From Alphaproteobacteria bacterium (GTDB lineage Bacteria; Pseudomonadota; Alphaproteobacteria; Caulobacterales; Hyphomonadaceae), in contig JAHJSB010000048.1 of assembly GCA_018830285.1 (NCBI GenBank), forward strand, positions 1 through 64,000: a stretch of DNA of 64,000 nt, written 5' to 3'. A program made the position numbers and the translations under genes. The notes under the pieces were generated by a model that saw only the letters and a program-made list of their open reading frames with translations, was not told the origin of the DNA and did no database searches. Each line of letters opens with the position of its first letter. Position 1 is the stretch's first letter. This document shows, in pieces, positions 8,922-64,000 of this stretch.

Positions 8922-8931
8922 TCTTCAGGCC

Positions 8932-9348: not shown

Positions 9349-9350
9349 TC

Positions 9351-12397: not shown

Positions 12398-12428
12398 CCA
12401 GTGGCGGGCGGGCCCGCTAAGCGAAGGC

Positions 12429-13253: not shown

Positions 13254-13256
13254 GCG

Positions 13257-48934: not shown

Positions 48935-49261
48935 TCAACCGCCCTTCAATGCTTCCAGCATTTTCTGGGTCCGGACTAATTGCTTGTCATTCATATTTGC
49001 GAGAATGCCGTTTATATTGCGAAGCGTTTCTCCTCGAGCGCCAGAAGGAAATGACTTTGCGCCCAACAGGTCTTGTGGGGAGACTCCAAGAGTCGTGGCA
49101 ATCTTTTCTACAGTTTCAAATAGCGGCGCTGAAATGCCACGTTCAATTTTCCCAATAGTTTCTCGCGAGACGCCAACCTCGCCAGCCAATTGTTCAAGAG
49201 TCCAACCTACTGCACGCCTGTGGTGTCGAACGTTGGCCCCAAAAATTTTTTGAAGTTCCAT
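48935..49261 (-). CDS. XRE-family transcriptional regulator next to the sigma-factor gene
   Basis: This is a 108-residue HTH protein. WTLEQLAGEVGVSRETIGKIERGISAP is the helix-turn-helix, and LFETVEKIATTLGVSPQDLLG the usual continuation. A C-terminal helix (NGILANMNDKQLVRTQKMLEAL) may mediate dimerisation. The gene is antisense to and convergent with the ABC exporter (10 bp apart) and divergent from the sigma-factor gene. The 149-bp divergent region between them carries matching direct repeats, so self-regulation and control of the sigma gene are likely. Confidence 0.88.
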   Translation of the reverse strand: MELQKIFGANVRHHRRAVGWTLEQLAGEVGVSRETIGKIERGISAPLFETVEKIATTLGVSPQDLLGAKSFPSGARGETLRNINGILANMNDKQLVRTQKMLEALKGG

Positions 49262-49410: not shown

Positions 49411-50085
49411 ATGTCCGAAGCGCGCAACGATTCTCAATTCTCAAAACGGCACGTGAGAGATTCGTCCAGCTCTCACGAAAGCAGCTCCAGTTCGAAATCT
49501 CGACAATCAGCAACTCTCATCGATTTCCATCATGAGCCTGGCCACCTAGTAGGGTCTGAAGCCCTGAATCATATCTTCCGGCTTCATCGCAGCGAACTTC
49601 TTCGATTCAGCCGTGCACGAATTGGCAACTCCGATGATGCTGAAGATCTTGTCCAGGAAGCCTTCATCTCGGCAGGGCGTGCCTACAGCGACAAGCCCAT
49701 CCAAGAATTGCGACCTCTCCTGTTCACGATTCTGCGGAATCTGACCCGCGACTACCTGAAGTCGGGTTATACGCGGAGCTGGCGTGACAGTGCCGACATC
49801 GGGGCGCTGGGCGACAGGCTGGCCTGCCGCCAGACGATGACGCCGGAACAACAGGTTCTGGATGCGCAATTGCTCGCGATTGCGGAAACAGTCATCGCGG
49901 GACTCAAATCTCGTGAAAGACAGGCGCTTCAGTTGCATCGACTGGAGGGATTGACCCATGAGGCCATTGCGATTCGTCTGTCCGTGTCGCCAAGAACCGT
50001 CAGAAGTGATATAGCCGCAGCGCTGGCAGCCATCGCGAAAGTCCTTTCGCGTTCCGGCGGCTGGCGTCCAGATACGGCTGAGTGA
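49411..50085 (+). CDS. FecI-like ECF sigma factor
   Basis: This is a 224-residue extracytoplasmic-function sigma factor. Region 2 is visible as LNHIFRLHRSELLRFSRARIGNSDDAEDLVQEAFIS (core Asp-Ala-Glu-Asp-Leu-Val-Gln-Glu), and region 4 as RERQALQLHRLEGLTHEAIAIRLSVSPRTV. The N-terminal 50 residues are Ser-rich and not part of the fold; an internal start near the region 2 end is possible. Its stop overlaps the start of the FecR gene, the normal arrangement for a sigma/anti-sigma pair controlling a TonB receptor. Confidence 0.92.
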   Translation: MSEARNDSQFSKRHVRDSSSSHESSSSSKSRQSATLIDFHHEPGHLVGSEALNHIFRLHRSELLRFSRARIGNSDDAEDLVQEAFISAGRAYSDKPIQELRPLLFTILRNLTRDYLKSGYTRSWRDSADIGALGDRLACRQTMTPEQQVLDAQLLAIAETVIAGLKSRERQALQLHRLEGLTHEAIAIRLSVSPRTVRSDIAAALAAIAKVLSRSGGWRPDTAE

Positions 50086-51110
50086 TCGACGTGATGACAG
50101 ATATTGAGGAGGAAACGGGCAGGCTAGATGCCGCCGCTCGCTGGTACAGCGAACTCCAGCGCGAAGACGTCGAGGTCGAGACGTGGGACGAATTTCTCGC
50201 TTGGGAACGTGATCCACAAAACGCCGCAGCGTTCCGCCAGATCCAGGCAAACCTCGCGATCATTGACCGGTCACTGCGTGCGGGCACCAGGACTGCTGGT
50301 TCAGGTCCACAGGCCAAGTCGCCGTCGGGATCAACACTGCGAAAGCGCGCCTGGCTATCCGGCCTGGCGGCCGTGCTTTCTTTCGCAGCTCTTGGCTGGT
50401 GGGTTGTAAGCAAAAACACAAAAGTTGAACCCGAGACTTTCACAACACTTGTTGGGGAGCAGCGGACTGTCACGCTATCTGATGGCTCTACGATCACGCT
50501 CAACACGGATACGTCGCTCGAAGTGATGTACTCAGTACGCGAGCGTCTGATCGGCCTCCGACAGGGCCAGGCCTTTTTCGATGTCGCAAGGGCGGACGTG
50601 CCATTCCATGTCGACGCAGGCGGCAGTCGTACGACGGCACTCGGAACACAATTCGACATCTATGCGCAGCCAGGCCAAGTGGCCGTAACCTTGCTGGAAG
50701 GTTCTGTTGTGGTTTCCGACTCACCTGAGCGTGAGAGGGGCTTTGTCAGTCCAGAACGCTCAGACACCGCCGAGCCAAGAAGCCAGATGCTCACACCCGG
50801 CGAAAGGCTCGAAATCATGCAGGACGGATCTCAAACCCTGTCCAGGGTGGAGCCTGCAACTGCGCTGCAATGGCGCAGCGGCGTCCTTCAATTTGAAAAT
50901 GTCACACTGGCTGAAGCCGTCGCCGAACTGAACCGCTATTCGGAAACGAGGATTAGTGTACCCGATCATGATCTCGCCTCAGAACGCCTGAGCGGAAGCT
51001 TCCCGACAGGTGAGCCTGAAGAATTCGTATCGAGTCTCGCGCTTTTCCTGCCAGTCAGGCCAGAGCGATCCGAAAATCTGATCACACTTATGCCCATCGA
51101 CCCTGATTAA
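50082..51110 (+). CDS. FecR-like anti-sigma factor
   Basis: This is a 342-residue membrane-spanning regulator. The GTG at 50082 overlaps the sigma stop (GTGA); the ATG at 50094 is an equal alternative. The N-terminal cytoplasmic part has the DUF4880-type DAAARWYSELQREDVEVETWDEFLAWERDPQNAAAFRQIQ (key Trp and Asp-Pro-x-Asn). A helix at about 85-105 crosses the membrane (AWLSGLAAVLSFAALGWWVV). The periplasmic FecR domain follows (VGEQRTVTLSDGSTITLNTDTSLEV). Its C terminus would contact the receptor's STN domain. It holds the sigma factor until ligand signal arrives. Confidence 0.92.
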   Translation: MIDVMTDIEEETGRLDAAARWYSELQREDVEVETWDEFLAWERDPQNAAAFRQIQANLAIIDRSLRAGTRTAGSGPQAKSPSGSTLRKRAWLSGLAAVLSFAALGWWVVSKNTKVEPETFTTLVGEQRTVTLSDGSTITLNTDTSLEVMYSVRERLIGLRQGQAFFDVARADVPFHVDAGGSRTTALGTQFDIYAQPGQVAVTLLEGSVVVSDSPERERGFVSPERSDTAEPRSQMLTPGERLEIMQDGSQTLSRVEPATALQWRSGVLQFENVTLAEAVAELNRYSETRISVPDHDLASERLSGSFPTGEPEEFVSSLALFLPVRPERSENLITLMPIDPD

Positions 51111-51712: not shown

Positions 51713-54472
51713 ATGTTCAACAAGACACAATTCAACGCGCGGCTGTTTAGCGCCGCGGCTGCATCGATCATCCTGTCGACAGGCCTGACCGGCGCATGTG
51801 CCGATGCGCTCACACCAGGAGGTCAGGTCGAATTCGACATTGACGCACCCGTGCTCGCAGACGCGTTACGCGCGTTTGGTGCGCAGTCGGGTACGCCCAT
51901 CCTGTTTGCCGAAGCGTTGGTCGCAGGGCGCAAGGCGCCAAGACTCAACGGAAATTTTGTGCCGACTGATGCGCTGGACCGCCTCCTTCTGGGGAGCGGG
52001 CTTGTAGCGGTCAAGGGCCCGGGTCGGGCGATCATCATTCGGGCGCAGGCTAATGCACCGGAGCAGGCGCCTCCGCCAGCGCGTGAGGGTCGGGCGGAGG
52101 TGCCTGCACAGACTCTGGCAGATCCCGGCGTCGCCGAGTCAGATGATAGCACATTGCGGGTCGATACCGTCACCGTCACGGGCACAAGCTTGCGGGGGAT
52201 ATCTCCAGAAAGTTCGCCTTTGCAGATATACCGCCGGGAGGATATCCTCGGATCGGGCGTCACAACGACCGAACAATTCATCCGGACTTTGCCGCAGAAT
52301 TTTGGTGGCGGTTCCAGCGAGTTCGCCCCCGGTGGCCTGCCGAATGACATCAATTCGCGCCAGAATAATACGTTTGGCACCAGCGCCAATCTTCGCGGGC
52401 TGGGGTCACGCGGGACGCTGGTCCTGCTCAATGGCAACCGCCTGGCACCGACATCCAAGGTGGGCGATTTCGTTGACCTGTCCCTGATTCCCGTCTCGGC
52501 GCTTGAGCGGATCGATGTCCTCACTGATGGAGCGTCTTCGATCTATGGCGGAGACGCTGTGGCAGGCGTCATCAACTTTGTCCTCCGGGACGATTTCGAA
52601 GGGGCCGAGACCAACGCTCGGCTCGGCTCTGTGACTGACGGCGACATGAAGGAATACCGTCTCAGCCAGACGCTCGGTTCGGCCTGGAGAAGCGGAAACA
52701 TCCTCGGCACTTATGAATATTTTGACCGCGGAAATCTGACACTCGCGGACCGGCCGAATATTGGTCTCCCTCTGCTGACGAATGGTGAGCCAGTACCGGA
52801 CACGGGCGCAGTCGATCTCCTGCCCAAGCAGCGTCGACACAGCGCTGTTGTGTCCGTGCGGCAAGCATTCGGCCCGGCACTCGAACTCACTGGTTCAGGG
52901 GTCTACTCAAAGCGGGATGTGGTCAGTCACTCTATCCTGAGTTCGGCGCCGGGATATAAACAGATTTACAACACGAAATCAGAATCGCTCTCGGGGAGCT
53001 TTGGAGTTGATTATGAATTGGCCCCAGGCTGGTTTGCTGCTGCCGATGCGACCTATAGTCAGATCCGCAACGAAGAGACGCTGACATTCTTTCTGACGCA
53101 GGATCCGAGCGTTGATCAAACGGAAAGTCGGTCGGATCTCTGGTCGCTCGATGCACAGCTCAATGGCGATCTGCTGACTATTCCAGGCGGTCGGATTAAG
53201 GCAGCGCTGGGAGGACATTTTCGGCGGGAATCCTTCACAAATGAGTCGCAATCAAGCGGGGTGAACCGCGATGCTGAACGGGATGTGTCGGCTGTCTATG
53301 GTGAACTGCTCCTGCCGATAGTCGGAGAAGGCAACACGCTGCCACTGGCAAGACGTCTTGAACTGAACCTGTCAGGCCGGTTTGATGACTATTCCGATTT
53401 CGGCAGCAGTTTCAGCCCCAAGGCTGGGATTTTATGGTCGCCTGCGTCGGGATTGAACCTGCGCACTTCCTACAGTGAGTCCTTCGCGCCGCCTCCGCTG
53501 GGAAGGGTCGGCGCGCTCGACAGGACAGGAAGCGTCTCGCCCTACCAGCTTATTCTCGACCGACTTGGCTTGCCACTACCGGATGCCTCGCTGGCGGGTG
53601 TTGACTACATGGTTCTTGGCGGCACCGCAGAAAATCTTGATGCAGAAGAGTCACGTACGTTTACAGCCGGACTGGATTTTTCTCGTGACGCGGGCAGCCA
53701 TGCATGGTCAGCAACAGCCAACTATTACGACATCACGTTTGACGGGCGTCTCGGCAGCACACCTGTGCCGGGGAATGTGAACATAAACGCCGCACCGGGC
53801 ATTGCATTTACGATGCCCGGATCGTTTCCCGATGGCATCATCATTTTCAATCCGTCACCGGAAGAATTGAGCGCTATCCTAGCGGGCCTATCCCATCCGG
53901 TGCGGCTCAATTCAGGGGCAAGTCTCGACAATATCGCGATTGTAAATTCGGTAAATGTCGTGCGAAACATTGCGGAAACACAGACACGGGGTCTGGATGC
54001 GCAGATCACCTACAGTGCCGACACGCGGATTGGCCGGATATCAACGGGACTGAATGCGAACTATATTCTGGAATTTAGCGAGCAAGCCGCTGCAACGACA
54101 CCGCCAGTCGAATCGACGAATACACTTTATAACCCTGTCGACCTGAAAATTCGGGCAAATGCCGGAATTAACCGGGGCGGGTTCAAGGGCACGCTCTTTC
54201 TCAATTATTCTGACAGCTACCAGACCGATACGACGGCTGATGCGTCCGACATCGGGTCATGGACCACAGTCGATGCCGCCGTATCATACACATTCGAAGA
54301 CCGGGTTGGATGGCTTGATGGTGCCGCCGCCAGTCTTTCAGTTACGAACCTGTTCGACATGAACCCACCATCGGCTCCGTCGCGCGGTTCCTTCCTGATC
54401 TCGGGCTTTGATCCGACCAATGCATCACCGCTTGGCAGATTTGTGGCCCTCGAATTGCGCAAGCGCTTCTGA
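51713..54472 (+). CDS. STN-domain TonB-dependent receptor (candidate lasso-peptide receptor)
   Basis: This is an outer-membrane receptor of 919 residues. The start at 51713 is set by GGAGGGGAAT and a good signal peptide (MFNKTQFNARLFSAAAASII, then LSTGLTGACA). Residues 38-105 are the secretin/TonB short N-terminal signalling domain (FDIDAPVLADALRAFGAQSGTPILF, DALDRLLLGSGLVAV). The plug has TVTVTGTSLRGISPESSPLQ and NLRGLGSRGTLVLLNGNRL. The barrel ends VALELRKRF. A STN receptor next to FecI/FecR and an isopeptidase is the known uptake arm of lasso loci in alphaproteobacteria, so the ligand is inferred to be the lasso peptide. Confidence 0.93.
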   Translation: MFNKTQFNARLFSAAAASIILSTGLTGACADALTPGGQVEFDIDAPVLADALRAFGAQSGTPILFAEALVAGRKAPRLNGNFVPTDALDRLLLGSGLVAVKGPGRAIIIRAQANAPEQAPPPAREGRAEVPAQTLADPGVAESDDSTLRVDTVTVTGTSLRGISPESSPLQIYRREDILGSGVTTTEQFIRTLPQNFGGGSSEFAPGGLPNDINSRQNNTFGTSANLRGLGSRGTLVLLNGNRLAPTSKVGDFVDLSLIPVSALERIDVLTDGASSIYGGDAVAGVINFVLRDDFEGAETNARLGSVTDGDMKEYRLSQTLGSAWRSGNILGTYEYFDRGNLTLADRPNIGLPLLTNGEPVPDTGAVDLLPKQRRHSAVVSVRQAFGPALELTGSGVYSKRDVVSHSILSSAPGYKQIYNTKSESLSGSFGVDYELAPGWFAAADATYSQIRNEETLTFFLTQDPSVDQTESRSDLWSLDAQLNGDLLTIPGGRIKAALGGHFRRESFTNESQSSGVNRDAERDVSAVYGELLLPIVGEGNTLPLARRLELNLSGRFDDYSDFGSSFSPKAGILWSPASGLNLRTSYSESFAPPPLGRVGALDRTGSVSPYQLILDRLGLPLPDASLAGVDYMVLGGTAENLDAEESRTFTAGLDFSRDAGSHAWSATANYYDITFDGRLGSTPVPGNVNINAAPGIAFTMPGSFPDGIIIFNPSPEELSAILAGLSHPVRLNSGASLDNIAIVNSVNVVRNIAETQTRGLDAQITYSADTRIGRISTGLNANYILEFSEQAAATTPPVESTNTLYNPVDLKIRANAGINRGGFKGTLFLNYSDSYQTDTTADASDIGSWTTVDAAVSYTFEDRVGWLDGAAASLSVTNLFDMNPPSAPSRGSFLISGFDPTNASPLGRFVALELRKRF

Positions 54473-54554
54473 GTAGATGCTCGGTCGTGCGTTGGAGCGC
54501 CGCAGAGAAGCGGCGCACGCGTCCTTTATTCTCCAGAACCTGGTAACGCCCATC

Positions 54555-57134
54555 ATGCTCAGACGTTTCCGAGATACGATCACGCTCTTCATCGTGAGTA
54601 CCATCATCGCCTACTTTCCAACCGCTCTGGCGGAGCCCCGTGCCTTTGGGCTTGATGACCTCCTTCACATGGAAGGGCTGGGTGCTGCCGGTGCCGACCC
54701 GCAAGGTAAGTGGATGATGGTCGAAAAGATCCGACCTTATGACGGGATCACCGATTACAGCTTTCGGACCTATGCTTACCAGAAAAGTGGTCATCAGATA
54801 TGGAGATACGATATGCGGGCAGGCGGCGAGCCTGAACGGCTTCCGGGCCTTGATCCGGAGCCGCACACCTATCTCCAGGGCTTTTCACCTTGGGGCAAGT
54901 ATCTCCTGCTGATGCAGTACCATTCGGGTGCGCTATCGATGCTTGCTTATGAGATGGATAGTGAGACGGTTCGGACGTTCAAGAAGACGCCCGCGTTCAG
55001 CCGTTCAGGTGAGCATAATCCCGTCTGGATCAGCGACACGGCCTTTGTATTCGCAGCGCTTCCGGACGGGGACCTGCCGGCCACTACGAGTGTGCGCGCG
55101 AGAACCGGAAAGGCATTGGCCAAGGGTTGGAGGGACGCCTGGAGTGGAGAAGCGGCGACAGCTGTCGAAGTACGTACTTATGCGGAGGATCAGTCAAATC
55201 AACCCGAAGCCGGAGAACTGGTCGTCGCAGATGCCGACACAGGCCGTGTCGAAGTGCTCGCTGAGGGGCTCTATGCAGACCTTCGTGTGTCACCTGACCA
55301 GAGGTGGCTTGCTGGTCTGGCGGTATCGAAACCGCGACCGGCCGATCCCGATCGACTGCTTGACCGCGAACCGCGCCGTTACAAGCTGGTTATGTTTGAT
55401 CTCGAGACCCGGCGGGAAGTCCGTCTGGCCGAGAATCTCGAATTCTATCCCTATACGATTACCTGGTCACCGGATAGCCGACGCCTCGCCGCCTATGGCT
55501 GGGAGCGCGACAAAGATGCGGCAGAAGGCAGATTTCATGTCATCGATATCGCGTCGGGTTCCGTTACCCGTTATGACCATCCTGGGCTCGATCTCGTCTC
55601 TGAGCGTGAACGCGGATGGCGGCAAAGGCCGGAACGAGCCCTTTTTATCGGTGACAGGTTGGCCGTATTTGCGCGGCGCGCGGCTGCAGGATCTGATCCG
55701 GGCGGCACATTCACCGATCGCAATTTCATGCAGACCGGACTTGGCCGGGCTGATTGGTACACCCTCGCAAGGGATGGCAAAGTACACAATCTGACAGCTT
55801 CGCTGTCGGATGTGTCTGGCATTCCGGTCCATGCAGGCCCTGGCCACGTCACGCTAAAGGCCGCTGATGGCGTCTATCGCTATTACAGGGATGGAGGTGT
55901 GCGCCGACTAAGCCCGAACCTCGATGGGCAGCTGCAGATGCTGACGCCTGGCACATTTGCAACGCGTAGCAGCGTCATCCGGCCGGAATTCAGCACTGAG
56001 GCACTTTTCTCCGTGACTGGAGCGGGAGTAGCCAGGATACTCATGCTGGATCTGCGGGAAGATCAAACCGTATCGCCGGTCCTGATCGACGCGCCGAACA
56101 GCCAAGCCTCTCCTCTGGCCGGAAGTCTTGCCGCCGGGACCGTGCTGTTTCGAACGGAGAATGGGGCCCAGTCGCATCTGTTTCTTGCGCGCTCAGGCTC
56201 GCAACGGCGTCCCAAGGAGATCATGCGCATCAATTCGCATATGGCAGGACTCGATTTCGGTGAGTGGAGAATTTTGTCCTACAGCTTAGCGGATCCTGAA
56301 GGCCTCCTGAAAAACCAGACCGTGGAGAGCTGTATCCTTCTGCCTCCGGACTTCGATCCGCATGCGCCGCCACCTTTAGTCGTGGATATTTATCCCGATA
56401 TCGGGCCGACTTGCCGCAAGGGAGGACCGAAACTTGCCTATCCGGATCCGGATTCGCCTTACGTATGGGCCAGCAAAGGCTATGCGTACGCGCGGCTTAC
56501 GACCCCGCGAGAGCTGATCCGCACTGACGAGGGGCCGATTGCCGGAATGGATGAGGTCATTGGAGCGGGGGTCGATGCCATTCTCAAGGAGAGACTCGCC
56601 GATCCAGAGCGTATCGCGCTTTACGGGTTCAGTCAGGGCGGCGTATCTGCGCTCTACGTGGCGGCTCATTCAGATCGATACAAAGCAGTGATCGCGGCAA
56701 ATAGCTGGGCAGATCTGTTCAGTAACTATTTCGGGCCCGCCGGAGTGTATTCCTACCTGTATGGATCCTTTGGGGCGTTCGGCCGGTATGATGCAACCAG
56801 CGGCAGCGATTTCGGTATCGGCCGTACGCCCTTTCAGGATCCGGAAGTCTATTATCGCAATTCGCCCGTATTCCTCGCACCACAGATCGATATTCCCGTC
56901 CTCCTTCTCCATTCCGACATGGACGAATTCTCAATGTCACAATTCGACGAAATGTATGGCGCACTGTTCCGGGCGGGAAAGGATGCCCGCTACGTCCGGT
57001 ATTGGGGCGAGGGCCATGGCCCATCGGGGCGAGCAAATATAAGGGACATGTGGGAACGGTTTGACCAGTTTCTCAGTGACACCCATGTTGCACCTGAGAA
57101 TGGTGCTATGCCTGCCTGTCAGGCGTGTCGATGA
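54555..57134 (+). CDS. S9 family lasso-peptide isopeptidase (Atxe2-like)
   Basis: This is a secreted prolyl-oligopeptidase-fold hydrolase, 859 residues from the ATG at 54555, which gives a signal peptide MLRRFRDTITLFIVSTIIAY ending at ALAEP; a frame start at 54477 lies 4 bp after the receptor stop. The propeller covers about 60-560. The catalytic triad is Ser693 in GFSQGGVS, Asp790 in LLHSDMDEFSMSQ and His821 in WGEGHGPSG. It should open the isopeptide bond of the imported lasso peptide in the periplasm. The last 29 bp overlap the cyclase gene on the other strand. It is longer than characterised Atxe2-type enzymes. Confidence 0.9.
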   Translation: MLRRFRDTITLFIVSTIIAYFPTALAEPRAFGLDDLLHMEGLGAAGADPQGKWMMVEKIRPYDGITDYSFRTYAYQKSGHQIWRYDMRAGGEPERLPGLDPEPHTYLQGFSPWGKYLLLMQYHSGALSMLAYEMDSETVRTFKKTPAFSRSGEHNPVWISDTAFVFAALPDGDLPATTSVRARTGKALAKGWRDAWSGEAATAVEVRTYAEDQSNQPEAGELVVADADTGRVEVLAEGLYADLRVSPDQRWLAGLAVSKPRPADPDRLLDREPRRYKLVMFDLETRREVRLAENLEFYPYTITWSPDSRRLAAYGWERDKDAAEGRFHVIDIASGSVTRYDHPGLDLVSERERGWRQRPERALFIGDRLAVFARRAAAGSDPGGTFTDRNFMQTGLGRADWYTLARDGKVHNLTASLSDVSGIPVHAGPGHVTLKAADGVYRYYRDGGVRRLSPNLDGQLQMLTPGTFATRSSVIRPEFSTEALFSVTGAGVARILMLDLREDQTVSPVLIDAPNSQASPLAGSLAAGTVLFRTENGAQSHLFLARSGSQRRPKEIMRINSHMAGLDFGEWRILSYSLADPEGLLKNQTVESCILLPPDFDPHAPPPLVVDIYPDIGPTCRKGGPKLAYPDPDSPYVWASKGYAYARLTTPRELIRTDEGPIAGMDEVIGAGVDAILKERLADPERIALYGFSQGGVSALYVAAHSDRYKAVIAANSWADLFSNYFGPAGVYSYLYGSFGAFGRYDATSGSDFGIGRTPFQDPEVYYRNSPVFLAPQIDIPVLLLHSDMDEFSMSQFDEMYGALFRAGKDARYVRYWGEGHGPSGRANIRDMWERFDQFLSDTHVAPENGAMPACQACR

Positions 57135-58941
57135 TCCTTGTCCAGGTGCGTAACCAGGCTTCAATTGCGTATGTGACAAGGAGACTGCGACCGAGCCTGT
57201 GAATGCTTAGATTTTCGCGGCGTGTCATCCTCTCAAGTTCATCCCTGTCCATGAGACCAAGCTCTGCGAGTACGCCGGAGCGGAGAGTATTCGCGAGCGT
57301 TTCAGAGTTGGATTCGAGAAATTCCATGAAATAACTGGACGCGCTTCCTTTTGTCATTCTGCGCCCAATGCTGTCAGGTATCCTACCTGAGAAAGCCTGG
57401 CGCACGAGGCCGCGGCTCTCACCGTTCGCCAAAAGCAGCGAGACAGGCAGCCGCAGGCAGAGCTCCATGAGAGGCTGGGAGATGAGAGGATGAACAACCG
57501 CCACAGTGTCGGGTCGCGTCGCGGAATCTGAAACCTGCACCATATGCTGTAGGGAGCTTACCTGCAGGAATTTGGCAGGCGGCAACCCTTTTGCGTTTCT
57601 GACCCATTCCGGCAAACTACCGTCCACGCTGGCGCCGGCGTCGACATGTTCTGACATCGCCTCCTGCCGGTGGCGGAAGGCAGATTGCATGACGCTTTCG
57701 CGTCGACCAAGAAGAAGGGCGGGCAGGCAAGCGTACAAGACGTCCCATATCGATCGCTGGGAGAGACGTGACGCGCGGAGCAGGGCAGGCAGTGTACCTG
57801 CAAACAAGCCATGGGTCAGTATGTAGTCGGCGAATGCCAGGGGTGTCCTGCGCTCCAGGAAGAGATGATCGCCCCCCTGGCCGGTGAATAGCGCCGCGTG
57901 CTCGCCCGGAGAAATCCTTCCTGCCTGCGAGGGCGCTTCGCCGATAAAGGACCTGTAGGGCCGGGCCGTTGGAGGATGAGTTGCCACATTCGGCAGGACG
58001 CTGTTTGGACGAACACGTATGGTTTCAAGCGGAACATCTGCAAGGGCCGCTGCGGACTTCGCATGGCTTTCTTCCGACAGGTCGCCAGATTCAAGGCGAT
58101 AATGTATTGCCCCTACATTTCGCCCTCGTTCAGCGTTGGCGAGACATGCAAGCACAATAGCTGAATCAAGCCCGCCCGAAAGACTTACATCGACTCTGTC
58201 GAAGCGCGATGCCCACGCCTTAACAACCATCTGGCTGGTCTCCAATAGCCGACGTGCTGCTTCCTTCTGGTCTGGTAACAAGACATCAGCGGCAAAATCT
58301 CTTGGGTCCCAGGCTAGCTCTGTCATTGTACGGGAGGACGTGACCACAAGCCGCTCGCCGCCCAACAACTCCCTGACTTCGTTGAGGCCGGTCTCACCCG
58401 TCTGAACTTTGTCATAGATGACCAGTTTCGAGATGAAGTCACGATTCAGGGTAAAGGCGGACCTGTCGATGAAGTGGCAATCCTGAAGATGGGAGAAAAC
58501 GAGTGTGACCCCACACTGATCGGCATGGAAACAGGGTAGGGAGGCGCTCGGATCCCTGACAATGACAAAATGATCGCCACAATCGAGGAAGCTTATATAG
58601 CTTCCCCAATAATCCCTTAGGAGTGCATCACCGCGTGAGCGGCAGATGCGGGATGAAAAGGGAGGGCCGCTTGCCGCGATGTCAGGCGCTGACAGCGATT
58701 TACCGAACCTGTCGAACAGGCTGCCGAAGATGGCGCCTCCGACACCGTCGGGTGAGCTGGGCAAGACAAGGATATTACCGTCGCAGGGCAAGCGGGAGAA
58801 GTCAAAAAGTTCGAGGCCTGGCCGCGTAAAGTGGGGGTGCGGTGCAAGGCCACCTTTCTCCATCCGTAAGCGGATATCCGTCACCAGATCGGCCGCCGCT
58901 GGGTCTTTTTCTTCCCAGATCATGGCAAAATAGGAAAGCAT
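57106..58941 (-). CDS. Lasso-peptide cyclase, asparagine synthetase-like (C protein)
   Basis: This is the ATP-dependent macrolactam synthetase, 611 residues. It activates the Asp/Glu side chain of the core as an AMP ester and joins it to Gly1. The N-terminal glutaminase-like domain begins MLSYFAMIWEEKDP and lacks the Cys2 nucleophile of true asparagine synthetase. The ATP-pyrophosphatase loop is VSLSGGLDSAIVLACL (SGGLDS at 255-260). FTGQGGDHLFLERR and a C-terminal KGSASSYFMEFLE are other family features. It starts 12 bp after the B gene, without a clear ribosome site, which suggests coupling. Confidence 0.94.
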   Translation of the reverse strand: MLSYFAMIWEEKDPAAADLVTDIRLRMEKGGLAPHPHFTRPGLELFDFSRLPCDGNILVLPSSPDGVGGAIFGSLFDRFGKSLSAPDIAASGPPFSSRICRSRGDALLRDYWGSYISFLDCGDHFVIVRDPSASLPCFHADQCGVTLVFSHLQDCHFIDRSAFTLNRDFISKLVIYDKVQTGETGLNEVRELLGGERLVVTSSRTMTELAWDPRDFAADVLLPDQKEAARRLLETSQMVVKAWASRFDRVDVSLSGGLDSAIVLACLANAERGRNVGAIHYRLESGDLSEESHAKSAAALADVPLETIRVRPNSVLPNVATHPPTARPYRSFIGEAPSQAGRISPGEHAALFTGQGGDHLFLERRTPLAFADYILTHGLFAGTLPALLRASRLSQRSIWDVLYACLPALLLGRRESVMQSAFRHRQEAMSEHVDAGASVDGSLPEWVRNAKGLPPAKFLQVSSLQHMVQVSDSATRPDTVAVVHPLISQPLMELCLRLPVSLLLANGESRGLVRQAFSGRIPDSIGRRMTKGSASSYFMEFLESNSETLANTLRSGVLAELGLMDRDELERMTRRENLSIHRLGRSLLVTYAIEAWLRTWTRIIDTPDRQA

Positions 58942-58953
58942 CGCGTGTGGATT

Positions 58954-59676
58954 CTAAACGGACATGATTTTTCTGTATTCTGAGACGTGACCCAAATGGT
59001 CATTGAGCACTATGCCGTCATGTTCGATCCAGCAATGGGCACTGAAAGGTAGCGGTCTCACGCCGAACTCCCAGTTGGCGCTTATGCCCATCAGGGACAG
59101 AAATTTGAGAAGGACAAGACTCCGGAAAAAGCAGGCTTCATGGCTGGTGAAGACGTAGGGCGTGAAGCTGTGAAAACGCCGTGTCAGTTCCAAGACATAA
59201 TCCTTTGAGCAATGCGATGGAGCGACGGCTGCCCATTTTCTGGCGGAGGCGAGCGTTTGCTTCAGGTGAGAAGTCCGTCTGACATGAGTTGCTACCGCAA
59301 ACGCAAGTAGAAAGGCGGTCATGGTTCGCCAATGCATGAGCGGTTCTGCACATGGCGACAAGTCGTATAGCGACGTATGAGGATTCGGCCGGATCGGACG
59401 GTTCAGGTCGGGCCCCTCAGGCTGATGGTGCGTGATCAGGTTCATGTCGAGAAGGCGTCGCGCAAATCGGACAGCCGCTGCTGATAATGATGAACACTCG
59501 CAAGCCCCACAGATTTCGGCAAACCAATCGGATTGTTGGCCAGTGAACCGGAAGTAGCGATCCGTACTGCAGTCAAGCAGAATGTAAGACGTTTTGAATT
59601 CGCACACGTAGACATCCGGGCTCAGGGAGTAACTGCGTCTCAGGAATGGCAGGTCTTGGGCGGATGCAGGTTGCAT
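58954..59676 (-). CDS. Lasso-peptide leader peptidase, fused B1-B2 (RRE plus transglutaminase-like)
   Basis: The 240-residue B protein binds and removes the leader. The start at 59676 (MQPASAQDLPFLRRSYSLS) is preferred, because the frame start at 59727 would place the N terminus inside a strong hairpin. Residues 10-85 are a PqqD-like leader-recognition element (YVCEFKTSYILLDCSTDRYFRFTG, core Leu-Asp-x-x-x-Asp-Arg-Tyr). Residues 110-240 are the transglutaminase-like protease with Cys182 (HEACFFRSL), His214 (SAHCWIEHDG) and Asp226 (VLNDHLG). The fused form is the rule in proteobacterial lasso clusters. Confidence 0.93.
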   Translation of the reverse strand: MQPASAQDLPFLRRSYSLSPDVYVCEFKTSYILLDCSTDRYFRFTGQQSDWFAEICGACECSSLSAAAVRFARRLLDMNLITHHQPEGPDLNRPIRPNPHTSLYDLSPCAEPLMHWRTMTAFLLAFAVATHVRRTSHLKQTLASARKWAAVAPSHCSKDYVLELTRRFHSFTPYVFTSHEACFFRSLVLLKFLSLMGISANWEFGVRPLPFSAHCWIEHDGIVLNDHLGHVSEYRKIMSV

Positions 59677-59698
59677 GTGCTCTATCTCTTCGGCAAAA

Positions 59699-59724
59699 GC
59701 GGGGGCGCAACATTGCGCCCCCGC
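59699..59724 (-). terminator. Perfect 12-bp hairpin between lasso A and B genes (attenuator)
   Basis: GCGGGGGCGCAA (59699-59710) and TTGCGCCCCCGC (59713-59724) are exact reverse complements with only two bases between. On the minus strand the stem is followed by TTTT. It lies in the 63-bp gap after the precursor stop. It should stop most transcripts or protect the precursor mRNA, giving much more precursor than enzyme. Confidence 0.85.
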
Positions 59725-59739
59725 CATGGTTTACCGGGC

Positions 59740-59877
59740 CTATTCGCGGCTATTGACGCTGCCCTGGTTGAACTCGTCACCGAGGGGACCGATCCCACGT
59801 GTTTCCACGCTGACCGATCCAAGTTCGATGGGCTCGAACTCTTCATCCCGATAGCGGTCTTCTGTCTGGGTATTCAT
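59740..59877 (-). CDS. Lasso-peptide precursor (A)
   Basis: This is a 45-residue precursor. ATG at 59877 follows AAAGGAGAATTAGTC, a strong ribosome site; an upstream in-frame start at 59970 lies in the promoter. The leader is MNTQTEDRYRDEEFEPIELG then SVSVETR (27 residues), with Thr26 at position -2 and an IELG..S.ET(R) end like astexin leaders. The core is GIGPLGDEFNQGSVNSRE. Gly1 is the ring amine. Glu8 (8-residue ring, as in caulosegnins) or Asp7 is the ring acid. The unmodified lasso form has a hand-computed monoisotopic mass of 1856.87 Da. Neighbouring B and C genes make the call firm. Confidence 0.9.
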   Translation of the reverse strand: MNTQTEDRYRDEEFEPIELGSVSVETRGIGPLGDEFNQGSVNSRE

Positions 59878-59928
59878 GACTAATTCTCCTTTCGGTTTGA
59901 GGGATGTCGCTGGCCGGGCGACAAGTAG

Positions 59929-59957
59929 AAAATGCATCCAATCTAAAATTGAGTCAA
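59929..59957 (-). promoter_or_regulatory. Candidate promoter of the lasso A-B-C operon
   Basis: On the minus strand TTGACT (59957-59952) is followed after 17 bases by CATTTT (59934-59929), a good -35 with a weak -10. Transcription would start about 45 bases before the precursor ATG. The surrounding 197-bp gap to the TPR gene is AT-rich and holds no other gene. Confidence 0.4.
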
Positions 59958-60074
59958 CGCTTCGAAACATGAAAAATCGTTTATAAAACAGGATACTAAG
60001 CGTGCTTTTTTCTCCGCCACCAGCTTATCTCGCGGTGTCGCTCAAGCGCTCATATTCAATCCGGTTCGATAACC

Positions 60075-61502
60075 CTATTTTCTCGAACCGGGCTCCTGGC
60101 TTTCTTCCAGGCAGCGGTCTGCGAGATCCATCTGCGTGGCGGGCAAGGGGCCGTCATCGCCAAGGCGCGCCAGCGCGACCGGAACTGGTGATTGGCGCAA
60201 GAGTGCGGCTGCCTTCTTACTGTCTCCCCGCTTCAGTGCCTTGTCGGCGCGCGACAGGGCATAATAGGCGCGGGTATACGGATCGACTTGAAACAGCGCC
60301 GGCGAACTGATGGCCGAGGCAAATCCTCTATCCGGCGTCTGCCAGCCCGGCCCATAGGTTTCAGCAAGATAGCGTTCGGGGTTGTCAGGGATGTTACAGG
60401 TCCGGCCCTTGAAATTTACCGCCTTCAGCCCGAACGGCGTGAACCGCCAGGCCACATCACCATTGGCCCGCCCAAGGCCGCACTCCAGGCGGCCACCTTT
60501 GGGTTCATAAATAAATATGTCGACACTGATCCCCAGCAAAGTGAGAGCAAAATACCGGTCCCCCGGACGTGCGCGTCGGGCAAGACAAAGATCGGGATGC
60601 TCGCGAATTATCCGTGCCACATCTTCCATTCCGTCCGGGCTGGCGAGTATGCCGATATCCACATCACGATCATGCGCCAGTGGCTGGCCAGAACGGTAGA
60701 ACCCGAGCAAGGTGCCTGCTGCGAGGAAGAAGGGAATTCCGGCAGCTTCCAGGATTTCGGCCATGCAGTCTAGCGCGTCGACCGCCCCTTCTGTGCTGAA
60801 GCAGGCAAGCGGATGGCTGGATTCTGGGCCGCGCCGCAGCGATACGGCGCTTTGCTTGTGATAGAGGGCTTCACGAAAATCTCCCGACTCATATCGCGCT
60901 CGGGCGAGGCAGTCATGGACCTTTGCGACGCCCGGTAGCCTGGCTGCGTACCTGGTGATGAAGGCGATCGCAGCGGACGCGCGATGCGCGTCAAGAAGCG
61001 CTGCGGCGCAGCTGGTAAAGAGGCGGGCTGCAGGCTGCCCGCTGCTGCAAAGGCGTACCAGCGCATCTGCGGCCTGTTCGAGAGCGTGGATGCGCTCCTC
61101 CTCGACTGGAGTGATGTCTGCGATCGATTGCCAGGATACCCACGCGTCCCGGCTTGCTGACGTGACTGCTCGGAAGGCTGCAAGCGCCTCGTCGCGCTTA
61201 TCAAGCGCATCGAGGGCAAGGCCCCGTCCATGCTGCGCCTGCGACTCTGTAGGATCGAGACCCAGAACCTCATTGAAACAGGCCAGAGCCATGTCCGCCT
61301 GTCCGGCGCGCAACCAGGCTGTTGCGAGCGATAGCACAATGGGAATACGCCCTGGCTGAAGGCGACTGGCTAGCCGCAGGGAAGGGATAGCATCACCTGG
61401 CCGCCCTGCTGCCAGGCATTGCTGGCCCGCGCGCAGGCATTCCTGCCAGGTGGCGGCCATGGCCGGTCGTTCCAGATCCGATCCTGCCGTGCGAGGGTTC
61501 AT
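60075..61502 (-). CDS. TPR-repeat protein with LicD/fukutin-like nucleotidyltransferase domain
   Basis: This is a 475-residue protein, taken from ATG 61502 (MNPRTAGSDLERPAMAATWQ) after GAGAGG. Residues 15-230 are tetratricopeptide-like repeats (AGQQCLAAGRPGDAIPSLRLASRLQPG, LRAGQADMALACFNEVLGLDP). Residues 240-420 resemble LicD/FKRP phosphotransferases: GIPFFLAAGTLLGFYRSGQPLAHDRDVDIGI, keyed by Gly-Thr-Leu-Leu-Gly and Asp-x-Asp-Val-Asp-Ile. It transcribes toward the lasso genes and ends 197 bp before the precursor. It could modify the peptide or a surface glycan; the first would be new for this type of locus. No signal peptide. Confidence 0.78.
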   Translation of the reverse strand: MNPRTAGSDLERPAMAATWQECLRAGQQCLAAGRPGDAIPSLRLASRLQPGRIPIVLSLATAWLRAGQADMALACFNEVLGLDPTESQAQHGRGLALDALDKRDEALAAFRAVTSASRDAWVSWQSIADITPVEEERIHALEQAADALVRLCSSGQPAARLFTSCAAALLDAHRASAAIAFITRYAARLPGVAKVHDCLARARYESGDFREALYHKQSAVSLRRGPESSHPLACFSTEGAVDALDCMAEILEAAGIPFFLAAGTLLGFYRSGQPLAHDRDVDIGILASPDGMEDVARIIREHPDLCLARRARPGDRYFALTLLGISVDIFIYEPKGGRLECGLGRANGDVAWRFTPFGLKAVNFKGRTCNIPDNPERYLAETYGPGWQTPDRGFASAISSPALFQVDPYTRAYYALSRADKALKRGDSKKAAALLRQSPVPVALARLGDDGPLPATQMDLADRCLEESQEPGSRK

Positions 61503-61699
61503 GGCAGCCTCTCGCCTGTGAGCGGGCTGAGGGGCGGGAAAGGTACGCGGCAGGGCGGCGTCGCCGCCGGCACTTCGCAATCCGACCGGCAATACCCTGT
61601 GAGCGCGTTCGGCGGTCTATTCGGATCAGGGGTTCTTTCTGTGAACATGGCTCTCGCGCGGTGAATGTGCTTGGCATCGCAAGCAAAATGCATGTCGCT

Positions 61700-61718
61700 G
61701 CCTGAAGCGGCTTCAGGC
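61700..61718. promoter_or_regulatory. 19-bp perfect palindrome, candidate LuxR operator
   Basis: GCCTGAAGC (61700-61708) and GCTTCAGGC (61710-61718) are exact reverse complements around one central base. Size and the CTG...CAG layout resemble lux-type boxes. It lies between the divergent TPR-LicD and luxR genes, about 200 bp from the TPR start and 240 bp from luxR. No T run follows, so it is not a terminator. Confidence 0.4.
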
Positions 61719-61838
61719 CGTTGTCAGTCCTGTTGCTTACCGTCCCGCCGGAAGATCCCGTTCGCTGTAATTTGCGGATCGGCACGTGATCATGAGCGGT
61801 ATTGAATTGTGCCCCATTAAACCATAGGTAGGAAATTT

Positions 61839-61931
61839 ATGCAACATGACATGCGTGCTCCGGTACGTCGGCGCCCCCTGCTGATCCGGGGGCCGGATGT
61901 TTCGGCGGCGCCAGGTAAAAGAGGTTATTAA
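61839..61931 (+). CDS. Possible 30-residue upstream ORF before luxR
   Basis: The ATG at 61839 follows ATAGGTAGGAAATTT, a better ribosome site than that of luxR itself. It encodes MQHDMRAPVRRRPLLIRGPD then VSAAPGKRGY and stops 16 bp before the luxR ATG. The product is basic and has no known motif. It may be a leader peptide that sets luxR translation or a chance frame. Confidence 0.3.
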   Translation: MQHDMRAPVRRRPLLIRGPDVSAAPGKRGY

Positions 61932-61947
61932 GAGCGAGACAGGTTCC

Positions 61948-62676
61948 ATGCGCGACTATGACGGGTCTGCCGTCCTTCATGCCATCCGGCTGATATTGAC
62001 GACGACGACGAGTGCCGAGACGATCACGGCGCTTGCCGGTTTCATCGAATCCTATGGCTTCAACAGGGTTTTCCTCGGACAGCTCGTCAACCCGCTGAAT
62101 GTTCCGTTAAAGGACATACTTTATGTTTCCAACTGGCCTGATGAACTTAAGGCCGCGCGGAGAAACCAGGCAGCGATCCTTCATGATCCGATCGCCCTTT
62201 GCGCCCTGCGCTCAAAGCGACCCTTCACCTGGGCTGAGGCGCGCGCCTACGCTTCACGCGCGGGCAGAAAGGTCGTCGACATGGTGCATGATTTTGGCAT
62301 CACTGATGGCATGATGTTCCCGATGCACGCTCTTGAAAGCGTGTCCGGAGGCGTGTCGCTGGGCGGCCATTCGAAATCCGACCTCTCTCCGCTCGAGGTC
62401 GCGGAACTGGAGCTCGTATGCCAGGTCGCCTACTATCATCTGGAGGTCATGCATGGTCCATTTCCCTATCAGAGGGTCGCCGAACTTACGGCCAGGGAGA
62501 CCGAATGCGTTCAGTTTGTGGCTGCCGGAAAGTCAAACTGGGAAATCGCAAAAATACTGGGAATCCAGGAAGACACGGTGAAAAAGACCCTCCGCAGGGC
62601 ATGTGACAAGTTCGGCGCCGTCAACCGGGCCCACTTGGTTGCGAGCGCGATCGCCCGCCATCAGATCTTTCCCTGA
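61948..62676 (+). CDS. LuxR-family quorum-sensing transcriptional regulator
   Basis: This is a 242-residue acyl-homoserine-lactone receptor. I use ATG 61948 (MRDYDGSAVLHAIRLI); the frame is open 51 bp earlier. Residues 15-165 are the autoinducer-binding domain (VSNWPDELKAARRNQAAILHDPIALCAL, with the conserved Trp and Asp, and KRPFTWAEARAY). Residues 175-240 are the LuxR HTH: LTARETECVQFVAAGKSNWEIAKILGIQEDTVKKTLRRACDKFGAVNRAHLVA (keyed by Gly-Lys-Ser-Asn-x-Glu-Ile-Ala). It pairs with the luxI gene 79 bp downstream. Confidence 0.94.
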   Translation: MRDYDGSAVLHAIRLILTTTTSAETITALAGFIESYGFNRVFLGQLVNPLNVPLKDILYVSNWPDELKAARRNQAAILHDPIALCALRSKRPFTWAEARAYASRAGRKVVDMVHDFGITDGMMFPMHALESVSGGVSLGGHSKSDLSPLEVAELELVCQVAYYHLEVMHGPFPYQRVAELTARETECVQFVAAGKSNWEIAKILGIQEDTVKKTLRRACDKFGAVNRAHLVASAIARHQIFP

Positions 62677-62679
62677 CAA

Positions 62680-62695
62680 GTCCCCGAAAGGGGAC
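62680..62695. promoter_or_regulatory. Palindrome upstream of luxI, candidate LuxR operator
   Basis: GTCCCC (62680-62685) and GGGGAC (62690-62695) are inverted around GAAA. The element lies 3 bp after the luxR stop and 60 bp before the luxI ATG, where an activator site is expected. No T run follows, so a terminator is less likely, though weak attenuation of luxR-luxI readthrough is possible. Confidence 0.45.
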
Positions 62696-62755
62696 ATTAC
62701 ACGGGACCCGTCACCGCGGAATACTGCTCCTGCCAGTCAGTCAGGAGGCCAGCCC

Positions 62756-63406
62756 ATGTTCAAGATTGTTACACCCGATACATATAGCGAGCACCAGGAT
62801 ATGCTCGATGCCATGCATCAAATGCGCTACCGTGTCGTTGTCGGCGAATGGGGCTGGGACATCCCGGGCATCCAGCCGGGGTATGACAAGGACCAGTTCG
62901 ATACCGATGCGACTGTCTATGTCATTGTCCGCACGTCAGAAGGAGAGGTCGTCGGAACATCAAGGCTCAATCCCACGATGCGGCCTCACATGCTCAGCGA
63001 CCTCTTTGCCGACTATTGCAACCTTCAGCCCTATCCGGTCGGGAAGGATGTCTGGGAATGCTCTCGCTTTGTCATGGACCGGTCGCTGACAACCAGTGCC
63101 GTCGATGATTTTCGCGTCCGGTGTCGCATCGGGCTCGGATTGACCGCTTATTGCCTCGACAATCACATATCCCGGCTGAGCTGGCTCACGCACCAGAAGT
63201 TCTTCAACCTCGTCCAGAGGGTATGGCATACGGAACCTCTCGGTCTGCCAAGACGGAATGGGGATGACTGGGCCTGGATTCCAGCCGTGTCGCGCATTGA
63301 TGAAGCGACATTTGATCGCCAGCTTGATCGTTATCGCAATGCCGAGGAGATCGTTGCCAACTATTCGGGGACCAGGCAGGCCTCTGAACGAAGTCATGTC
63401 GCATGA
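62756..63406 (+). CDS. Acyl-homoserine-lactone synthase (LuxI family)
   Basis: This enzyme makes an N-acyl-homoserine lactone from SAM and an acyl donor. The start at 62756 (MFKIVTPDTYSEHQDML) follows AGGAGG at 62742-62747. The 216 residues keep the invariant positions: Arg24 in MRYRVV, Trp34, Asp46 and Asp49 in DKDQFDTDA, Arg70 in VGTSR, and Glu101 and Arg104 in WECSRF. The Thr/Ser that favours 3-oxo acyl chains is not readable with confidence. Its TGA overlaps the ATG of the dioxygenase gene (ATGA). Confidence 0.95.
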   Translation: MFKIVTPDTYSEHQDMLDAMHQMRYRVVVGEWGWDIPGIQPGYDKDQFDTDATVYVIVRTSEGEVVGTSRLNPTMRPHMLSDLFADYCNLQPYPVGKDVWECSRFVMDRSLTTSAVDDFRVRCRIGLGLTAYCLDNHISRLSWLTHQKFFNLVQRVWHTEPLGLPRRNGDDWAWIPAVSRIDEATFDRQLDRYRNAEEIVANYSGTRQASERSHVA

Positions 63407-64000
63407 CAGAACAGGATCTATCGCTTCCGACACCGGCGCAGCAGGCGACGTTCACACGCGACGGCGTCGTTTGTTTGCGGAACGTTCTGGCGCCTGGCGA
63501 AATTGACCATCTGCGCCAGGCCGTCACCCGCCAGATGCGCGATTTGCGGGCATCCCCGACTGGCTATGACTTCGAAGCCCTTGCCCGCCAGGTCTGGGAC
63601 AATGACGGGCCCATCGACACGGGCGCTGCAGAGCGGTTCGACATGGCGCGCATGAGAGCGCTCGTGCTAGCCGACGAAAGGGCTCGCCCGCTGCTGGAAG
63701 AGGATTCATCCGGCCACGAAGGGATGTTCTTCTATGATGTCGCTGCCTGGAAGCATGACCGGGGCGTTCGGGAAGTCGCCTTTGATTCAGCCCTTCCGGG
63801 GATCGTCAGCTCCCTGCTGGATGCACGTTACCTGAATTTCTGGGAGGACTCGACCTTCATCAAAGCGCCGCACACACGCCAGAAAACGGCCTTTCACCAG
63901 GATCTCGCCTATTTCCAGATCGAAGGCGAGCAGTGCGTGATCGTTTGGATACCGCTTGACCCAGCCGACCTTGAAAACGGCGTGGCACAATATGTCCGAG
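63403..64000 (+). CDS. Phytanoyl-CoA dioxygenase family protein (partial, cut by window end)
   Basis: This frame runs open off the right edge, so only the first 199 residues are seen. FTRDGVVCLRNVLAPGEIDHLRQAV is the family N terminus. KTAFHQDLAYF contains the iron-binding His165-x-Asp167, and CVIVWIPLDPADLENGVAQYV is the double-stranded beta-helix core that follows. It is a 2-oxoglutarate/Fe(II) oxygenase. It overlaps luxI by 4 bp. A phytanoyl-dioxygenase gene beside luxI is known in sphingomonads; its substrate is unknown, but the link to signal synthesis or a quorum-controlled product is suggestive. Confidence 0.9.
   Translation, partial: MTEQDLSLPTPAQQATFTRDGVVCLRNVLAPGEIDHLRQAVTRQMRDLRASPTGYDFEALARQVWDNDGPIDTGAAERFDMARMRALVLADERARPLLEEDSSGHEGMFFYDVAAWKHDRGVREVAFDSALPGIVSSLLDARYLNFWEDSTFIKAPHTRQKTAFHQDLAYFQIEGEQCVIVWIPLDPADLENGVAQYVR

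Follow-up and report, generated by a model that had tools for sequence, protein, structure and literature searches.

The window analysed here, the first 64,000 of the 64,071 bases of contig C44 in a 3.56-Mb genome of the Hyphomonadaceae, carries a lasso-peptide operon with genes for a precursor (A), a leader peptidase (B), and a macrolactam synthetase (C). We read it, at a probability of about 0.8, as part of a functional lasso-peptide cluster of the receptor/isopeptidase kind whose product has a Gly1–Glu8 ring, with a probable link to quorum sensing and a probable modification by TPR-LicD, a protein with a TPR solenoid and a fukutin/LicD-type transferase domain encoded ahead of A.

Precursor, processing enzymes, and ring

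The three lasso genes lie together on the reverse strand:

59740..59877, (−), precursor A, 45 amino acids; leader at about 59797–59877 (MNTQTEDRYRDEEFEPIELGSVSVETR), core at about 59743–59796 (GIGPLGDEFNQGSVNSRE)
58954..59676, (−), B, RRE fused to a transglutaminase-like leader peptidase, 240 amino acids
57106..58941, (−), C, asparagine-synthetase-like macrolactam synthetase (PF00733, SGGLDS), 611 amino acids

The original prediction had assigned these functions to A, B, and C, and the assignments held up. A strong, properly spaced ribosome site (AAAGGAG) precedes A, whose leader ends in Thr-Arg, with Thr at position −2 and Gly1 opening the core. The precursor scored 31.9 bits against the Pfam family PF24178 ‘Subterisin’ (cut-off 27), and 24.2 bits, below the cut-off of 33, against the benenodin precursor family NF033522 of NCBIfam. 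Because PF24178 matches exceeded the cut-off in only 9 of 105 genomes of the family, this model covers the lasso clade poorly; its best match in the present genome (41.7 bits) is at a second, unrelated lasso locus. B scored 65.5 bits against NF033537 (lasso_biosyn_B2, cut-off 33). Of the catalytic residues proposed for it, Cys182 and His214 were invariant among 23 aligned sequences, whereas the third, Asp226 in this protein, is not invariant, the position being occupied by Asp or Glu. C scored 76.6 bits against PF00733 (cut-off 21), with SGGLDS at residues 255–260 and no glutaminase Cys2, as had been claimed; it stayed below the cut-offs of the narrower NCBIfam models NF033535 (47.3 vs. 525 bits) and NF033561 (81.7 vs. 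300 bits).

In the AlphaFold model of B (pLDDT 89.3), short strands followed by two helices form an RRE-like N-terminus. The top structure match in the PDB was TbiB1, a lasso RRE protein, with its leader (E 6.9e-3, probability 1.0); a lasso B1 protein, entry 6jx3, ranked 11th (E 0.55), and no PDB structure matched at E 0.001 or better. A predicted N-terminal RRE in B is supported by this model. Searching the PDB by sequence with A, B, and C returned no relatives.

C matches (E 1e-30) were present in 23 of the 105 family genomes; 20 of the 105 have a related precursor ahead of B and C. The closest named relative is the metagenome-assembled genome (MAG) of Hyphomonas sp. BRH_c22 (locus L055; C 76% identical), followed by other Hyphomonas, Henriciella, and Marinicaulis records. 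In a plasmid collection of 72,556 records, C had matches in 66, all below 60% identity (25–29% for the ten listed), and no close relative.

Since Asp7 and Glu8 are adjacent in the core, the original prediction had called the ring size ambiguous while favoring an 8-residue ring with a 10-residue tail. We compared precursors from related loci in two scans. The first covered 31 C-bearing loci (30 plus the second locus of this genome) and yielded a precursor at 26, those without one (L022, L023, L024, L030, and L031) belonging to a more distant clade or being a gene fragment. The second covered 29 loci, made up of the window, another genome, and 27 named records, many of them the same as in the first, and yielded a precursor at 28; its miss was a Luteimonas record (L081), whose precursor was found separately beyond the S9 peptidase gene. 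The search patterns demanded an acid somewhere within positions 7–9 (for Luteimonas, Glu within positions 8–10) but did not fix its place, and three cores found later were kept out of the count because their search had fixed the acid at position 8. Among the 26 distinct cores, with the second lasso locus of this genome excluded, position 8 was Glu in all 26, position 7 was acidic in four, and position 9 in none.

Because of this distribution, the peptide most likely has an 8-residue Gly1–Glu8 ring and a 10-residue tail, with Asp7 probably incidental, and the earlier ambiguity is largely settled in favor of Glu8. For closure at Asp7 it can be said that this residue is present in the core and that 7-residue lasso rings are known in the field. 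A passage of PMC11006600 likewise names positions 7, 8, and 9. Against the constancy of Glu8, however, an acid at position 7 in so few cores makes a 7-residue ring highly improbable. For the unmodified Gly1–Glu8 macrolactam we calculated [M+H]+ 1857.8725 and [M+2H]2+ 929.4399, which reproduces the masses given earlier (1857.87 and 929.44).

The core had also been proposed to be new. A search for GIGPLGDEF found no paper, a weak absence since it covered open-licence papers only, but the public MAG of BRH_c22 encodes the identical core under a diverged leader. Between the two genomes none of the 18 core residues is changed and 19 codons, including the stop, hold two silent changes, whereas 10 of the 27 leader codons carry amino-acid changes. 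Because the core is unchanged next to so divergent a leader, it is under purifying selection; by this comparison the core is selected, yet not unique to this genome.

TPR-LicD and the tail motif

The candidate tailoring enzyme is encoded upstream of A:

60075..61502, (−), TPR-LicD, 475 amino acids, TPR solenoid plus fukutin/LicD-type transferase domain

On the forward strand, genes for an ABC exporter, FecI, FecR, a TonB-dependent receptor with an STN domain, and an S9 peptidase run in this order toward the reverse-strand genes C-B-A-TPR-LicD, the S9 and C genes overlapping at their 3′ ends, and a LuxR-LuxI-PhyH unit on the forward strand diverges from TPR-LicD-A-B-C. The description of A-B-C as a complete operon was too narrow: ahead of A, TPR-LicD is encoded in the same orientation, and the receptor and peptidase genes converge on C. 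TPR-LicD is probably the first gene of the lasso operon.

The LicD domain scored 27.2–27.4 bits against PF04991 (cut-off 22.6), and 14 of 22 aligned members matched this model at E 0.001. D278, D280, and D282 were invariant in the 22 aligned TPR-LicD sequences, as were G263, T264, L266, G267, R270, and R279; the Asp triplet is presumably the LicD/fukutin catalytic motif. By sequence, the LicD domain alone matched human FKRP (E 6.2e-5). The structural model of the whole protein (pLDDT 86.9) shows a TPR solenoid followed by an alpha/beta domain, and in the PDB it matched FKRP as well as TPR proteins, among them O-GlcNAc transferase. The donors of FKRP and LicD enzymes are activated with cytidine diphosphate (CDP).

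TPR-LicD and the lasso genes occur together. It was present in 20 of the 105 family genomes, all of them among the 23 with a C match, and the other three C-positive genomes had only distant C proteins (29–30% identity). When the B2 model is used to define lasso-positive genomes (26 of 105), TPR-LicD occurs in 20 of 26 lasso-positive and in none of 79 lasso-negative genomes. In a draw of 398 genomes from the order, 24 genomes contained TPR-LicD, five of them from two other families, and the places numbered 34; one genome from outside the draw (G050) brings them to 35. At 34 of these 35, lasso genes lie beside TPR-LicD, the exception (G052:C488) being a contig end where A is expected. Some of the loci look incomplete: those of G250 and G052:C186 are cut off by an early contig end, and the two in G215 are distant (TPR-LicD 28–30% identical). 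Two cassettes weigh against an intact pathway wherever TPR-LicD is found: those of G047:C5 and G170 have A and B beside TPR-LicD, with no C match found (G047:C5:77600-82700, L152, which also has LuxR, LuxI, and PhyH; G170:C2:50500-55600, L175). These cassettes are perhaps decaying, or that of G047:C5 is perhaps served by the C protein of the other cassette in G047.

The precursors associated with TPR-LicD share a feature in the tail. A Ser or Thr followed by Arg or Lys ([ST][RK]) occurs after the ring in 24 of the 26 clade cores, and the other two read NSQ and NSM; shuffled tails contained the motif in a mean of 4.7 and a maximum of 12 of 26. Among 32 control cores, taken from lasso loci that lack TPR-LicD, 1 had it, these controls having been chosen by eye from open reading frames with a lasso-like leader and others dropped, such as the GGLGG/GGLLG-type peptide of L090/L092/L096, which lies kilobases away. 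The second lasso core of this genome lacks the motif, and no TPR-LicD match was found at its locus. The Ser/Thr occupies position 14–16 in 25 of the 26 motif-bearing cores listed and position 12 in the other.

Taken from these sequences, TPR-LicD most likely modifies the peptide, and the best candidate site is the conserved tail Ser/Thr, Ser16 in the present core. A competing explanation, to which we give somewhat less than even odds, holds that the tail Ser/Thr-Arg/Lys serves as a steric lock and recognition element, while TPR-LicD acts elsewhere, in immunity, envelope decoration, or on a carrier. Arg and Lys are bulky, and the motif sits at a nearly fixed register after Glu8, where a plug is expected. 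A steric lock does not readily account for the hydroxyl residue being retained in the two cores that have lost Arg/Lys, nor for the near absence of the motif at lasso loci without TPR-LicD, the second lasso peptide of this genome included. The tail motif looks as a modification site would, a lock also explains Arg/Lys at a fixed register, and both can hold.

Two variant arrangements of the cassette were seen. G187 and G207 (L172–L174) have tandem pairs of cassettes of this clade, separated by about 13 kb, and every cassette has a precursor of its own. The Luteimonas sp. XNQY3 record (L081, about 7900–15000), labeled as a gammaproteobacterium, contains a cassette with A beyond the S9 gene and the core GSIGQVTEGAGPNSMPL; horizontal transfer or contamination may account for it.

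The LuxR-LuxI-PhyH unit and transcription of the operon

Beyond TPR-LicD lie three genes of a quorum-sensing type based on N-acyl homoserine lactones (AHL):

61897..62676, (+), LuxR-type AHL receptor, with an autoinducer-binding domain (PF03472, 80.9 bits) and a GerE domain (PF00196, 51 bits)
62672..63406, (+), LuxI-type AHL synthase (PF00765, 70.3 bits, cut-off 24)
63403..63999, (+), PhyH-type dioxygenase, running beyond the window end

Because this unit faces the operon and is co-inherited with it, the cell probably makes the lasso peptide in a density-dependent manner. Across 42 genomes of Hyphomonas, LuxI (PF00765) was found in 16 of 18 lasso-positive and none of 24 lasso-negative genomes (Fisher p 9e-10, a value that ignores shared descent), and LuxR showed the same pattern plus one distant match (17 of 42). 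Of the 21 Hyphomonas LuxI loci, 20 are at or near lasso loci: 19 lie beside TPR-LicD, and that on contig C8 of the present genome (G000) is about 11 kb from the C gene of the second cluster. The lasso-positive Hyphomonas genomes without LuxI are G037, which has two cassettes, and G070, while G039, G043, and G047, with two cassettes each, have two LuxI copies, one per cassette.

Several results weigh against control by the unit. The presence/absence tests are uncorrected for phylogeny. Outside Hyphomonas LuxI and lasso loci are unlinked: the cassettes at Henriciella and Marinicaulis-type loci lack LuxI, and where LuxI occurs in other genera, lasso genes are missing or lie on different contigs. 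No lux box is common to the loci, since the best dyads of 18–22 bp in the gap between LuxR and TPR-LicD disagree among 13 loci; in two of these 13 gaps the dyad was reached by only one of 30 shuffles, and the two sequences differ. A promoter-like element upstream of the operon, described below, also occurs at two Henriciella loci without LuxR.

These results raise the alternative that LuxR-LuxI-PhyH is merely a neighbor that entered the genus with the cluster and has no control over it. The missing lux box and the lack of LuxI at Henriciella and Marinicaulis-type loci and in lasso-positive G037 and G070 agree with it, and PhyH adjoining LuxI has been described in sphingomonads in a passage without lasso genes, in a text from which the word ‘lasso’ is absent (PMC4288048). 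We nevertheless consider it unlikely: LuxI is found in no lasso-free genome among the 42 Hyphomonas, it accompanies each cassette in G039, G043, and G047, and the second, unrelated lasso cluster here also has a LuxR-LuxI-PhyH block, about 10–12.5 kb from its C gene.

Other LuxI loci were noted on the way. G055:C20 carries LuxR-LuxI-PhyH at 61556–63600 (L153), with no lasso-gene match in the 14 kb taken, and is possibly the relic of a lost cassette. In proteobacterial MAGs, weak LuxI matches lie 4–6 kb from lasso B genes at L103 (4159–4692) and L110 (3681–4996, here also LuxR), perhaps a second, independent LuxI-lasso pairing.

The second lasso cluster of this genome spans about 60322–75400 of G000:C8 (L151, L133) and has the core GQAIFDIDVSGGQLRYVAGSAAD. 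Its precursor belongs to the benenodin family (35.6 bits, cut-off 33), and it has an AtxE2-type isopeptidase (773.9 bits), a TonB receptor, and a FecI-like gene. A block of GntR, PhyH-like, LuxI, and LuxR genes (GntR and PhyH named by eye) lies 9–12.5 kb beyond C, so that each of the two lasso loci of the genome has one of its two LuxI genes nearby.

Two elements may bear on transcription of the operon:

59698..59726, (−), strong stem-loop between A and B, 12-bp stem; −41.4 kcal/mol for 89 nt, z −3.69
61817..61844, (−), promoter-like element TTGCAT-N17-TTTAA(T), upstream of TPR-LicD-A-B-C, conserved

BRH_c22 retains the stem-loop, its stem differing by one paired change that affects both sides (compared by eye); the structure is perhaps a transcript stabilizer or an attenuator that sets A above B and C. 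Of 31 other loci with TPR-LicD, 13 matched the promoter-like element at p up to 0.015 against mononucleotide shuffles, and at L067 it is visible outside the stretch scanned. We rejected it as a regulon motif because TTGCAT-N17-TTTAAT occurs once in the window, the element is present at the two LuxR-less loci, and 18 of the 31 had no match at this threshold in the stretch scanned. A generic promoter and terminator scan of 57000–62000 gave no more sites than expected from shuffles.

Putative linearization, uptake, and export, and comparison with known systems

The genes that converge on C from the forward strand are the following:

54477..57134, (+), S9 prolyl-oligopeptidase-like protein, putative lasso isopeptidase (PF00326, 52 bits), gene end overlapping C
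51713..54472, (+), TonB-dependent receptor, STN domain at its N-terminus, putative role in lasso uptake and sensing
50082..51110, (+), FecR-type anti-sigma factor/signal transducer, by domain match
49411..50085, (+), FecI-type sigma factor of the extracytoplasmic function (ECF) group, by domain match
47116..48924, (+), ABC exporter, candidate D, optional; related to exporters beside C in other proteobacterial lasso loci

A census of 27 loci (L055–L081) found an S9 match after C at 26 (none at L063, weak at L065, cut short at L072, and at L068 in a later search), a receptor match at 25 (none at L063; at L079 the contig ends), and LuxI with PhyH at 14. FecR matched at just 13 of the 27, two of these possibly from a neighboring cassette, so the FecI/FecR loop is not constant, which counts against a uniform signaling route.

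We infer from domains and synteny that the S9 protein is the lasso isopeptidase. Its hydrolase domain has an intact triad, Ser719, Asp814, Asp816, and His847 being invariant in 23 aligned sequences, and its N-terminus resembles a signal peptide by eye. What speaks against this role is that it scored only 38.6 bits against the AtxE2 isopeptidase model NF033523 (cut-off 400), a threshold passed by an Asticcacaulis protein (L125, 798.6) and by that of the second locus here (773.9), though not by one from Caulobacter (L128, 81.0), and that its divergence does not track that of the core (partial rho 0.05, p 0.28, 19 loci). Its sequence relatives in the PDB were only S9 peptidases and lipases/hydrolases, none named as a lasso isopeptidase. 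A general exported peptidase would fit both the low AtxE2 score and the missing correlation with the core, but seems improbable to us given that the gene lies convergent beside C at 26 of 27 loci, with the triad intact, and that the AtxE2 model is nonetheless the best, if weak, NCBIfam match for this protein and for the three relatives scanned (L069, L056, and L077). Because the S9 protein of this cluster scores so far below that of the second locus in the same genome, the clade has its own S9 subfamily of putative isopeptidases.

The co-evolution test used 19 of the 27 loci, L065 and L068 having been removed by hand and the rest for missing or short genes. The receptor gave p 0.083 against the whole core and 0.023 against the ring; of all ten tests, those with the smallest p-values gave 0.007 (ring vs. 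TPR-LicD given C) and 0.011–0.012 (ring and core vs. C given TPR-LicD). Because ten tests were made and the effects were 0.17–0.24, we do not claim co-evolution of the cassette proteins with the core.

The ABC exporter is a probable, optional part of the cassette. It is 91% identical in BRH_c22 and 58% identical in a Marinicaulis locus and in a locus of another family, near FecI. At 11 other proteobacterial lasso loci measured, an exporter homolog lies within 200 bases of C in five and at 0.9–2.8 kb in six; on the other side, of the 10 places listed for this exporter within the genus, only 4 coincide with lasso loci or lie near them. Between the exporter and fecI, an open reading frame of 108 amino acids (48935–49261, reverse strand) resembles a helix-turn-helix regulator by eye. 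The window has two further TonB-dependent receptor genes far from the lasso cluster (22339–24594, reverse strand; 28050–30449, forward strand).

In the pathway we propose, B would bind the leader through its RRE and cut after Thr-Arg, and C would join the Gly1 amine to the Glu8 side chain, giving an 8-residue ring threaded by the 10-residue tail; leader removal and ring closure are supported as firmly as sequence allows. The peptide would be exported, presumably by the ABC exporter, and probably re-imported by the TonB-dependent receptor of the cluster, whose STN domain would signal via FecR and FecI. The S9 peptidase, judged by its domains and synteny, would linearize the re-imported peptide. 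The operon, probably starting at TPR-LicD, would be under cell-density control via LuxR-LuxI, and TPR-LicD would decorate the peptide, with Ser16 as the best candidate. Our confidence falls in about the order uptake, feedback, linearization, quorum control, decoration. Product, modification, and regulation are all predicted from sequence.

A more specific version, which we put forward as tentative, is a density-controlled, decorated lasso signal: TPR-LicD would attach a group to the tail Ser/Thr through a phosphodiester, a CDP-activated compound being one possible donor, its TPR solenoid presenting the peptide to the transferase by analogy with O-GlcNAc transferase, and the peptide would report via the TonB receptor, FecR, and FecI, gated by AHL. 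We know of no earlier fukutin/LicD-type modification of a ribosomal peptide. If true, this would be the first, and the product would be a lasso peptide with a two-layer signaling role. According to a passage of a review, the known lasso peptides of the receptor/isopeptidase type, astexin-1 apart, lack antimicrobial activity (PMC9266682). The role of such peptides for their makers becomes testable in a clade whose lasso genes are inherited together with AHL signaling, a receptor gene, and the gene of a candidate tailoring enzyme. Named isolates in it include H. oceanitis, H. jannaschiana, H. chukchiensis, H. atlantica, and Marinicaulis flavus, so this can be done without a metagenome; among them, H. 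oceanitis, H. jannaschiana, and H. chukchiensis have the LuxI-linked form.

The receptor/isopeptidase cluster as such is of an already known kind, by the passages of the same review that we draw on (PMC9266682). The isopeptidase-type proteobacterial clusters for astexin, sphingopyxin, and benenodin described there likewise have A, B, C, an S9/prolyl-oligopeptidase-like gene, a TonB-dependent receptor, and a sigma/anti-sigma pair. The present cluster differs from them in its S9 protein, far below the AtxE2 cut-off, and in having TPR-LicD and LuxR-LuxI-PhyH where a GntR-like regulator is described for those (PMC9266682), as well as an ABC exporter nearby. Its likeness to the Subterisin family, whose cut-off the precursor exceeds, is at the level of the family model only. 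For the rubrinodin cluster, compared by description only, the part of that description consulted mentions no LuxI/LuxR or LicD partner. The sphingocin cluster of Sphingomonas BPH likewise has A, B, C, and a TonB receptor, with a divergent isopeptidase and without a D gene, and a B mutant lost phenanthrene use; its precursor is described as of the benenodin family, and LuxI and LicD go unmentioned in the passages concerned (PMC11006600). Capistruin, in the passage describing its regulation, is repressed by the AHL-responsive regulator ScmR, which is not a cluster LuxI (PMC6963729).

The nearest parallels to the proposed decoration are the paeninodin and pseudomycoidin clusters, in which, by the passages available, the tail Ser is modified by cluster enzymes, a tailoring kinase and the nucleotidyltransferase-like PsmN (PMC9266682, PMC8498205). 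Unlike these, no kinase was seen in the present cassette, the candidate enzyme is of the TPR-LicD/fukutin type, set apart from PsmN by description, and the Ser/Thr is internal, before Arg/Lys. A search of open-licence papers, hence a weak absence, found none that joins Hyphomonas or Hyphomonadaceae with ‘lasso peptide’; the one paper listed for ‘lasso peptide’ together with LicD concerns a Bacillus that produces lichenysin, and seven combine the term with LuxI and LuxR, the capistruin paper among them. Within the open-licence literature searched, this clade is set apart as new by having TPR-LicD as a constant partner, along with the tail motif, and by the co-inheritance of LuxI in Hyphomonas.

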